From the NCBI GenBank assembly GCA_902594335.1, contig CACJLY010000007.1, positions 1 through 64,000 on the forward strand: DNA of 64,000 nucleotides, read 5' to 3'. The notes beneath the pieces were generated by a model. That model did not search any database and was not told the origin of the DNA. It worked only from the letters and a program-made list of their open reading frames with translations. How positions within the stretch are numbered: the stretch's first letter is position 1; every line of letters begins with the position of its first letter. Of the stretch, positions 22,231-24,909 are shown one piece after another. This DNA comes from an uncultured Pelagibacteraceae bacterium (GTDB taxonomy: Bacteria > Pseudomonadota > Alphaproteobacteria > Pelagibacterales > Pelagibacteraceae). Position numbers and translations under genes: made by a program.

Positions 22231-22302
22231 AATTTAAAGCAAAATAAAAATTATGTGATTTTATAGGATGTTTTAGACTACGTTAGACTACCACGGACTG
22301 AC
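22231..22302. repeat. Conserved element outer end (copy A) with 10-bp tandem motif
   Basis: AATTTAAAGC..ATTTTATAGGATG then TTTTAGACTA/CGTTAGACTA/CCACGGACTG; homologous to 24838-24909. Confidence 0.85.
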
Positions 22303-22322
22303 TCGTCTGTGAATCCCTTGGC

Positions 22323-22432
22323 TTTTAAGTCCTTTGTGTCTACCAATTTCACCACGAGGGCATGAGTTATTTTCATGAGTATTTATGCTAATATTTATAA
22401 TTGAACAAGTTTAATAAGTAAAATTTTTTTAT
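22323..22432 (-). repeat. 110-bp repeat copy 2: truncated tRNA-Leu 5' half plus promoter
   Basis: 41-bp exact tRNA-Leu 5' half at 22323-22363; promoter TTGTTC-N17-TAAATA at 22380-22408. Confidence 0.95.
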
Positions 22433-23514
22433 ACTTTGCTTTGTTGTCTTAAAAGGAATACTTCTTCAGCTCTTTTAATGCATGCCAATTCTAAATTTTT
22501 GTGGGATCTTTTAGAGATTGCCTCAATAATCAAAGGACTTTCATCTTTTGCACAAGAATAATTCTTTATAGATCTATTTACATTGTCTTCAGCAAGTATT
22601 TTTTTTATTAAATCTTTTCTAAGTGTGTTACCTTTTTTTTTATCAATCTTACCTGAAATAATGGATAAACTAAAAGATACCAGAGCACTTATAATAAAAT
22701 ATATATACGCTCTATCACTCAATTTTTTTGCTTCATCATTAGAAAAACCACAATCATTCAAGCTAGATTTTATATGATATTTAAATAATTTAAAATTTGA
22801 GATAGGAAATCCTCTATTTAAACCATCAGAAACCGCAGTATTAACATTTGGATAAACGTGATGTGTATAAAGTTGTTTTTTTAAATATTTCACTGAGTTA
22901 GTGAATGATAGAACAGACCATGAAAAAATTTGATCTTCCATATATCGTAATTTTTCATCAAATTGTAAATTGTTTTCACTAATAATAGAACGTCTTATTA
23001 ATCTTCCAGTAAGATCAAATAGAGTTAGTGTTGGTAATGTATTGTAAAATCTTTTTCTCATTTCATGCATAATTTCAGACTTATCCAAATCACGACTTGA
23101 AGGATACATAAAAATATTTTCTCTTTTATTTTTATTATTTTGTATCCATTTTTTATCACTGATTACGAGATCGTATTGATTCTGAGTCGCAATATCATAC
23201 ATCAAAGAAAGTGTATTTGTTTCTATTACGTCGTCGACATCAATAAAAAATACATAGTCTCCAATAGCCTTTCTTAAACCAAAATTCCTAGCAGCTGAAG
23301 GCCCTAAATTTAATTTCAATGAGAAAAACTCTAAATTTTGTAATTTTTTTTTTTTTAATATACTGATGGTGTTATCAGTTGATCCATCATCAACCATTAG
23401 TATTTCAAATGGTTTATCAAAATCTTGATTTCTTAATACTTCAAGGCAATTTTCAATATACTTCTCAGCATTAAAAATTGGAACAATAACACTTATCAAA
23501 GGATTTTTGGACAT
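22429..23514 (-). CDS. Family 2 glycosyltransferase (cargo 2)
   Basis: 361 aa; VSVIVPIFNAEKYIENCLEVLRNQ, EILMVDDGSTDNT, FFIDVDDVIETNTL. Stop codon lies inside repeat copy 2. Confidence 0.92.
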   Translation of the reverse strand: MSKNPLISVIVPIFNAEKYIENCLEVLRNQDFDKPFEILMVDDGSTDNTISILKKKKLQNLEFFSLKLNLGPSAARNFGLRKAIGDYVFFIDVDDVIETNTLSLMYDIATQNQYDLVISDKKWIQNNKNKRENIFMYPSSRDLDKSEIMHEMRKRFYNTLPTLTLFDLTGRLIRRSIISENNLQFDEKLRYMEDQIFSWSVLSFTNSVKYLKKQLYTHHVYPNVNTAVSDGLNRGFPISNFKLFKYHIKSSLNDCGFSNDEAKKLSDRAYIYFIISALVSFSLSIISGKIDKKKGNTLRKDLIKKILAEDNVNRSIKNYSCAKDESPLIIEAISKRSHKNLELACIKRAEEVFLLRQQSKV

Positions 23515-23581
23515 ATTTTTTTCAAATAATATAAATCGTTGTTTAATTATTTATATTTATAAATTTCTCTTTTTTTTGGAG

Positions 23582-24808
23582 TTAACTATAAATTTTATAA
23601 GGAATTGGTTTAGACACTTGTTCGCCACCTTCTATCATTCCCCGGCCATCATAACCAACCTTACTAGACGGATCATATGGGCGGCCATCGCAAAAATCAC
23701 ACCCAGGAAAAAACTGTCTTCCTTTAATGAAATTTTTTAATTTGGTTCTTAAATTTTCTGTTTCATTTAATAATTCTATATAGTCAGCTTTATTATTTGG
23801 AACTGCTTTTAAAGTATATGCATTTGCTATAAAAGGACATGTATAAAGTCTGCCATTCAAAAGTGTGTAGAGTTGTGTACTACAACATTCTTTAAAAACC
23901 TCTTTCAACTTTGAAGCTGATCTATTGTGTTGATGAATTCTACTACAATCAACCCAATTTTCTGGAGGAGATCTATTGTAAGTAATTTTGTAATGATCTA
24001 GTTTTTCTATCATTTTTTCAATACTTCTTGATAATTTTCCATAATCTGTAATTGTGAAAATCACATTATTTTTGTCGAAAGATTCTAGTTGTTCGTCTCT
24101 CGGTGCTATTGTGCCATTTGTATAAATAAATATTTTAGCTTCGGGATTGTTTTTAGAAATACCATTTACAACATCAGCCCAACCTTTATTCATAAGTGGT
24201 TCGCCACCTATTACTCTAAATTCAGAAATATAATCAATATTTTGATACAATGTATCTAAAGCTTTAAGTATATCTTCATGATCAGTATTTTTAGCGTCTG
24301 TATAATACTGCATAAGATTTGAACAATTTCTGCATTTCAATGAACATTTAGTAGTAACCATGACATCTAAACTTCGCATATAAGTTTTATCTTCATCAAA
24401 ATAAAATTGATGACTTTTTTTGTTTACCTCAATTTTTTCATTCATGAATGATTGTGAAATTTGATATGTATATTTTGAAATTTCAAAATTTTTTAATATT
24501 TCTAAAGGTGAGTAAAAATCTCGATAACCCAACTCGAATAATGGATCCAAACATTTTTGAATGTCATGATATGCAATAATAATGCGAGCCTCAGGAAATT
24601 TCTTATGAAGTACTGGAGTATGAATTATTTCTAATCCACAAATCTTTTTTCCAGATTTTCTTTTTTCACTATCACATAATGCTGAAATTACTATTCCTGC
24701 ATCATTGCAAGCTTTTATAATTGCCTCAACCTCTCTTACAGCAGCAGCAATTATGACTGGAGGTCCAGATTGTTTTAAAGTCTCAATACAGTTATATTTT
24801 GCTTTCAT
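23582..24808 (-). CDS. Radical SAM protein with N-terminal Rossmann-like domain (cargo 2)
   Basis: 408 aa; CSLKCRNC (CxxxCxxC), RVIGGEPLMNKGW, C-terminal Cys cluster (CPF, CDFCDG). Confidence 0.88.
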   Translation of the reverse strand: MKAKYNCIETLKQSGPPVIIAAAVREVEAIIKACNDAGIVISALCDSEKRKSGKKICGLEIIHTPVLHKKFPEARIIIAYHDIQKCLDPLFELGYRDFYSPLEILKNFEISKYTYQISQSFMNEKIEVNKKSHQFYFDEDKTYMRSLDVMVTTKCSLKCRNCSNLMQYYTDAKNTDHEDILKALDTLYQNIDYISEFRVIGGEPLMNKGWADVVNGISKNNPEAKIFIYTNGTIAPRDEQLESFDKNNVIFTITDYGKLSRSIEKMIEKLDHYKITYNRSPPENWVDCSRIHQHNRSASKLKEVFKECCSTQLYTLLNGRLYTCPFIANAYTLKAVPNNKADYIELLNETENLRTKLKNFIKGRQFFPGCDFCDGRPYDPSSKVGYDGRGMIEGGEQVSKPIPYKIYS

Positions 24809-24837
24809 AACTCTAATTATAACCTATTTCTAATCAT

Positions 24838-24909
24838 AATTGAAAGCTAAATTAAAGTTATGAGATTTTATAGGATGTTTACACTGCCTTGGACAATTAT
24901 GGACTGACT
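24838..24909. repeat. Conserved element outer end (copy B) with 10-bp tandem motif
   Basis: AATTGAAAGC..ATTTTATAGGATG then GTTTACACTG/CCTTGGACAA/TTATGGACTG; homologous to 22231-22302. Confidence 0.85.

Follow-up and report, generated by a model that had tools for sequence, protein, structure and literature searches.

Two different cargos in a Pelagibacter genome end in the same sequence, each time beside half of a tRNA gene, which raises the question of what kind of end this is, how it came to be repeated, and which enzyme could have placed it there. The window analyzed here is a 64,000-nucleotide stretch of contig CACJLY010000007.1. The initial annotation had described positions 22231 to 22302 and 24838 to 24909 as homologous, and pairwise comparison within the window bears this out, with 81% gapless identity between 22220 to 22273 and 24827 to 24880 and 82% identity between the tRNA-adjacent stretches at 22272 to 22363 and 24878 to 24969. 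These regions form the left ends of a tandem pair of cargo-only integrative cassettes inserted in the Pelagibacter tRNA-Leu(UAA) gene, here called element 1 and element 2, and the proposal that one mobile-element end is common to two different cargos at a tRNA crossover holds for this pair. Displaced tRNA halves had also been reported; two are indeed present, both of them 5′ halves.

All of the features lie on the minus strand, where the order is a ComA-family gene of the host flank (phosphosulfolactate synthase family, 25085 to 25879), a tRNA-Leu 5′ half (24967 to 24929), element 1, a promoter plus 5′ half (22432 to 22323), element 2, a promoter plus the intact tRNA-Leu, and the NAD kinase gene that forms the host flank on the tRNA 3′ side (15828 to 16598). 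The intact tRNA-Leu(UAA), identified by ARAGORN and from the sequence (16603 to 16688), is the insertion site. The crossover is its anticodon loop CTTAAAA (16650 to 16656), as all inserted ends diverge right after this sequence. The outermost 5′ half (24929 to 24967) is probably the native one, left behind when element 1 inserted; in genome G238 this flank continues into an intact tRNA. The inner half (22323 to 22361) is the right terminus of the outer cassette, supplied by element 1, and marks the present boundary between the two elements.

Each element also brought in a tRNA promoter region at its right terminus (16689 to 16759 in element 2, 22362 to 22432 in element 1). The complete module of promoter and 5′ half spans 113 nt and is 94% identical between the two right termini (16647 to 16759 versus 22320 to 22432); therefore, each element supplies a promoter and a 5′ half. 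Integrative islands usually renew the 3′ end of a tRNA gene.

Between its termini, element 2 encodes a 1,485-aa coiled-coil-like protein of unknown function (16818 to 21275) and a 293-aa protein without a family match (21272 to 22153). It has two copies of the word ACTTGTACA at an 11-bp pitch on its right arm, followed by AGATAAA (16760 to 16791), a direct-repeat pair of the same word on its left arm (22164 to 22195), and an intact set of three boxes, AGTCCGTGGTAGTCTAACGTAGTC, referred to below as the tri-box (22276 to 22299). Element 1 encodes a GT2 glycosyltransferase (22429 to 23514) and a radical SAM protein (23582 to 24808). Boxes 2 and 3 of its tri-box (about 24882 to 24905) are damaged, and the sequence upstream of its promoter region has no repeat pair. 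Element 1 of the window has lost both direct-repeat pairs and is probably immobile. No integrase gene lies between the tRNA halves of either element.

The same site is occupied differently in relatives. The ComA flank leads to an intact tRNA-Leu in G238 (an empty site), to a type-B cassette in G293, to an integrase-bearing satellite in G144, and to two cassettes in the window. Recognizable att sites are present at both ends, with a tRNA half and tri-box on the left and a promoter and tRNA half on the right, G238 providing the empty site. Half-to-half distances range from 267 bp, without cargo, to 15.5 kb, and some outer halves are eroded. The 267-bp element (L165, about 8130 to 8396) consists of a tri-box, a single repeat pair, and a promoter, as though a loss between two repeat pairs had removed the cargo. 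Named records among the relatives belong to Pelagibacteraceae, and several are single-cell genomes, which limits the risk of chimeric assembly for those.

Cargo is diverse, with 181 open reading frames in 72 cassettes falling into 114 clusters and 166 of the 181 reading in the tRNA orientation. Functions predicted from profile matches include N6 methylases, type I and type IIG restriction-modification systems, Zorya, transport genes, and surface genes. One cassette (L102, 7419 to 11075) contains several tandem genes with a common pilin-like start (KAFTLIELLVVVAIIGILAAVGVVAYNGYT).

Read in the tRNA sense, the left end runs from the tRNA-Leu 5′ half through CTTAAAA and a spacer of about 24 nt to AGTC boxes set 10 bp apart, followed by ATCCTATAAAATC. 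Three 10-bp units had been placed correctly by the initial annotation; on the minus strand, the inner copy reads AGTC-N6-AGTC-N6-AGTC, and the outer copy is the one damaged in boxes 2 and 3. The units are close to the crossover as described, with the first box starting 24 nt after CTTAAA rather than the approximately 20 given. The pattern goes far beyond chance: a tri-box was present in 86 of the 92 distinct left ends gathered, and among these 86 the GTC offsets were nearly fixed (+25 in 84, +35 in 83, and +45 in 75). The ATCCTATAAAATC box is specific to cassettes and absent from satellites. It occurs at the cassette left end (22257 to 22269 in element 2, 24864 to 24876 in element 1), and the inverted form TTTTATAGGAT occurs at the right end (16803 to 16813).

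Searches tied the tri-box to this locus. Of 399 Pelagibacter genomes, 106 contained the tRNA-anchored pattern and none contained its reversed control; without the anchor, the sole matches in the window's own genome were at the tRNA-Leu locus. In 24 genomes from other genera of the order, the pattern matched nothing beyond the tRNA itself. For a profile scan, the profile was built without the tRNA half, yet a half directly preceded the match in all 30 of the top loci fetched, and four further strong matches had a half, an eroded half, or tRNA-Leu nearby. As the initial annotation had anticipated for such a profile, every match at E < 1e-5 was at a tRNA-Leu(UAA) half or eroded half. Weak matches alone were scattered, and these look like chance.

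The same end is also found in elements that carry their own recombinase. The exact pattern occurs in three IMG/VR contigs, which encode a 545-aa tyrosine recombinase, a protein called AlpA-like purely by resemblance (it matches no family), a primase-helicase, and a RusA-like protein. In satellites of this kind, integrated or circular, the end lies 100 bp before int. L082, L083, and L124 have direct terminal repeats and represent circular forms, the repeat of L082 lying on attP itself. Relatives occupy the tRNA-Leu site in G144 and G192, immediately after the tri-box, and cassettes and satellites are adjacent in L129 and L102. All integrases with 49% or greater identity to that of L082, where completeness allowed a check, occur with tRNA-Leu and AGTC-type boxes, while more distant ones occur with other boxes (L134) or with tRNA-Ser genes (L126 to L128, L132, and L136). 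The family is rare, being detected in 6 of 399 genomes; the window's genome, which is 84% complete, contained no relative, and 50,697 annotated phage records contained no match.

Several of these distant relatives extend the pattern. L134 has a 31% identical integrase at the same tRNA-Leu, with boxes of GACCCA and a word, GTTCCACAC, that also occurs at its int start (9811 to 10020 and 19824 to 20014); boxes and words appear to change with the integrase there. The relatives on L126, L127, L128, L132, and L136, on contigs with tRNA-Ser genes, are 24 to 38% identical to the helper integrase. In L132, a tRNA-Ser 5′ half precedes int and an intact tRNA-Ser(UGA) follows about 8.8 kb on, a 5′-half scheme at another tRNA.

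The L082 integrase scores below the PF00589 cutoff. A structural model of the helper integrase N-terminal domain (mean pLDDT, 78.7) aligned with 3jtz, 3rmp, and 3ju0 at target-normalized TM scores of 0.76, 0.74, and 0.67, with Foldseek E values of 0.07 to 0.39, weak for the domain alone; the predicted domain appears to resemble the arm-type-binding domains of P4-like integrases.

A second class of sequence distinguishes one element from another. In most cassettes, 9-bp words are directly repeated in pairs with an 11-bp pitch, each pair leading into a GAGATAAA-like stretch; one pair lies 75 nt ahead of the tRNA and another about 193 nt past the start of the left half. The repeated word varies between elements (ACTTGTACA, ACCAGCACA, ACTAGAAAC, CTCGTACA, and others), ACCAGCACA and ACCAGTACC being words of cassette attP, and the two arms of one element agree, with a mean of 7.51 of 9 positions matching versus 5.06 when permuted (permuted maximum, 5.74; 0 of 10,000 permutations reached the observed value). 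Among 37 whole genomes scanned for repeat pairs, the listed matches were all at tRNA-Leu arrays. In satellites, the left copy lies within the first int codons and matches the right arm of the same satellite at 8 to 9 of 9 positions, and satellites L130, L133, and L129 carry the three words most common among cassettes. Element 2 retains all of these features and could be mobilized by a helper bearing the ACTTGTACA word; none of the satellites examined had this word.

Viral contigs yielded one match to the repeat-pair pattern, in L112 (3765 to 5129; IMG/VR). Phage genes, including a PhoH-like ATPase recognized by eye, are followed there by two cargo genes, a cassette right end with the pair CCTGTACAT, and a tRNA-Leu 5′ half with an ATG 5 nt after it, which places a cassette right end within a phage genome.

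Word identity follows one part of the integrase. In a small sample of seven partly related satellites, N-terminal domain identity correlated with word similarity (Spearman 0.63; Mantel P = 0.008), while in the same seven the C-terminal part gave a Spearman coefficient of 0.25 (P = 0.13). For example, L133 and L129 share 91% or greater identity in most proteins, yet identity falls to 58% in the integrase N-terminal domain and to 65% in a small protein adjacent to int, and the two satellites have different words. Conversely, L124 and L130 have similar words and integrases that are 77% identical in the N-terminal domain and 60% in the rest. The variable repeats are probably arm-type sites read by the integrase N-terminal domain, because the words track this domain and the domain itself appears to resemble known arm-type-binding domains. 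The small int-adjacent protein is a less likely reader: it diverges along with the words in L129 and L133 but is dissimilar by eye in L124 and L130, where words and N-terminal domains are similar.

The repeat pairs might instead be replication iterons or phage-specific promoters. An AT-rich GAGATAAAAT stretch follows them, like a −10 box or unwinding element, and P4 replication uses two separate iteron regions. Both roles are disfavored by the constant spacing to the crossover on either arm and by covariation with the integrase N-terminal domain, which extends to the L124/L130 pair, and the motif is absent from pelagiphage HTVC105P, which led us to discard phage RNA polymerase promoters as an explanation; we regard iterons or promoters as rather doubtful. 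The same phage was rejected as the source of the cassette end, since the tRNA half alone is in common and its arms are different and lack repeat pairs. HTVC105P and phage MedDCM-OCT-S35-C6 have the same tRNA-Leu 5′ half beside int, flanked by an inverted repeat of their own, AAGTAGCGGA (L029, 2880 to 3090); in these phages an unrelated integrase targets this anticodon loop as well.

Assigning the variable repeats to the integrase arms leaves a different role for the tri-box, which had been put forward as either a recombinase-arm or an accessory-protein site. The second option fares better, and the arm-type role better fits the 9-bp repeats, which lie outside the segments first described. The tri-box is identical in L129 and L133 although their arm-binding domains are only 58% identical, and for this reason it is probably the site of an excisionase-like accessory protein. 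For winged-helix directionality factors, a binding mode in which neighboring molecules are one DNA turn apart has been proposed (PMC11963761).

Evidence for mobility comes from comparing cassettes with their surroundings. Integrase-less cassettes of different genomes are 96.6 to 98.9% identical at differing array positions, while the adjacent NAD kinase genes are 76 to 78% identical, and 6 of 10 comparable homologous pairs, one of them a satellite pair, are more than 5 points more similar than the NAD kinase genes. Because cassette identity lies so far above core-gene identity, integrase-less cassettes are judged to have moved recently between lineages.

High identity marks transfer rather than any one mechanism, and homologous recombination over the shared boundaries is a possible route. 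SAR11 has been reported to recombine frequently and to have competence genes (PMC7542561), and the cassette boundaries are long, near-identical direct repeats. Exchange mainly through the roughly 150-bp flanking repeats of promoter and 5′ half, with no integrase, nevertheless seems unlikely, as it would leave unexplained the fixed tri-box, the arm-matched, element-specific words, and the presence of both in integrase-bearing satellites. Still less probable is that the cassettes are fossil CIMEs, decayed satellites or islands that lost their integrase and persist as immobile tandem remnants. The missing repeat pairs and damaged boxes of element 1 and the eroded outer halves look like decay, but cassettes of distant genomes up to 98.9% identical beside core genes of about 76%, at differing array positions, do not, nor do matched words kept on both arms or cassette-specific boxes that satellites lack.

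Mobilization by a satellite integrase is the explanation we prefer. A circular cassette would recombine within the 7-bp anticodon loop CTTAAAA of the tRNA. The opposite terminus of the cassette would give a new promoter and 5′ half while the old 5′ half stays outside, so that the tRNA would remain functional; the next cassette would enter the renewed tRNA, and arrays would grow in this way. Because the cassettes have no recombinase, they would need a helper in trans, most likely a P4-type tyrosine recombinase of about 545 aa encoded by small satellites that use the same tRNA and the same end. Specificity would lie in the variable 9-bp repeat pairs that both arms carry and that the integrase N-terminal domain would recognize, and the conserved 10-bp-phased AGTC boxes would bind an excisionase-like accessory protein. 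The host's single-copy XerD-like recombinase (324 aa, G000 contig C2), the sole PF00589 match in the window's genome and present once in most genomes of the genus, was rejected as an integron-style integrase acting in trans and is scarcely credible in that role, as it has Pfam core-binding and catalytic domains but no arm-binding domain, occurs with or without arrays (including complete genome G012, where no tri-box was detected), and is not needed by satellites that bring their own enzyme to the same end. This XerD-like protein, at L028 4535 to 5509, scores far below the XerC and XerD cutoffs.

The structure, the site, the end in common with integrase-bearing satellites, the matched words, and recent transfer of integrase-less cassettes between lineages are directly supported. 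From these we infer mobilization in trans, the pairing of proteins with binding sites, and any phage packaging. Excised circles of integrase-less cassettes were not observed, and the viral contigs of IMG/VR, where short contigs may be underrepresented, gave no match to the cassette-specific left end. Overall, tandem integrase-less cassettes at tRNA-Leu(UAA), moved in trans by a satellite integrase with specificity given by repeat words, are a likely explanation of the locus. We lean slightly toward the broader proposal of an integron-like tRNA-Leu array fed by helper satellites, in which arm words would act as an address code matching satellite integrase to cargo, antiphage systems included.

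Pelagibacter, one of the most abundant marine organisms, has a streamlined genome whose gain and loss of flexible genes are poorly understood. The defined site, end sequence, and candidate enzyme described here provide a testable mechanism for this turnover. If the matched arm words act as proposed, they represent natural integrase-site pairs with separate specificities, and helper-cargo pairing would be predictable from sequence. Restriction-modification and Zorya cargo ties the array to the contest with phages.

Parts of this arrangement recall known systems. Like integrons, it is a cassette array with diverse, largely co-oriented cargo (166 of 181 open reading frames) and a recombinase apparently supplied in trans; unlike them, its boundaries are tRNA halves and its cassettes are often multigene. 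Neither an integron integrase nor attC sites were seen, the genome's only PF00589 protein scoring 21.5 against an integron-integrase cutoff of 265. As in CIMEs, att sites lie at both ends with no integrase of the element's own between the halves. The satellites have a gene set of integrase, AlpA-like protein, and primase-helicase in common with P4-like satellites (PMC8628076), and the predicted integrase N-terminal fold appears to resemble that of P4-like integrases (PDB 3rmp, 3jtz, and 3ju0), from which the helper sequence is remote (PF00589 below cutoff in L082). Tycheposons and VEIMEs (cited in PMC10803314, PMC11389934, and PMC10872708) are likewise integrative elements at tRNA genes of ocean bacteria, some thought to be phage satellites. 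Tycheposons are described as spanning 4 to 200 kb and having a tyrosine recombinase, which by that description sets the window's cassettes apart: these integrate at a tRNA gene but lack the enzyme. The helper satellites do have it and may be members of the tycheposon and VEIME group. VEIME DNA is packaged in virions, and the circular IMG/VR contigs of the satellites are not in themselves proof of encapsidation.

The additive flexible genomic islands of Methylophilaceae (PMC10872708), as far as the portion consulted describes them, range from 330 bp to 42 kb and are preceded by repeated tRNA fragments, in that case the 3′ end of tRNA-Lys; that portion describes no att architecture, helper, or specificity words. 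The ssrA islands of Dehalococcoides (PMC3146451) are also tandem islands at one RNA gene, some of them integrase-less and possibly mobilized with their neighbors, but they use a serine recombinase and the ssrA 3′ end. The Pelagibacter array instead combines a tyrosine recombinase, an anticodon-loop crossover, a 5′ half with its promoter, mostly integrase-less units, and variable arm words that match within each element.
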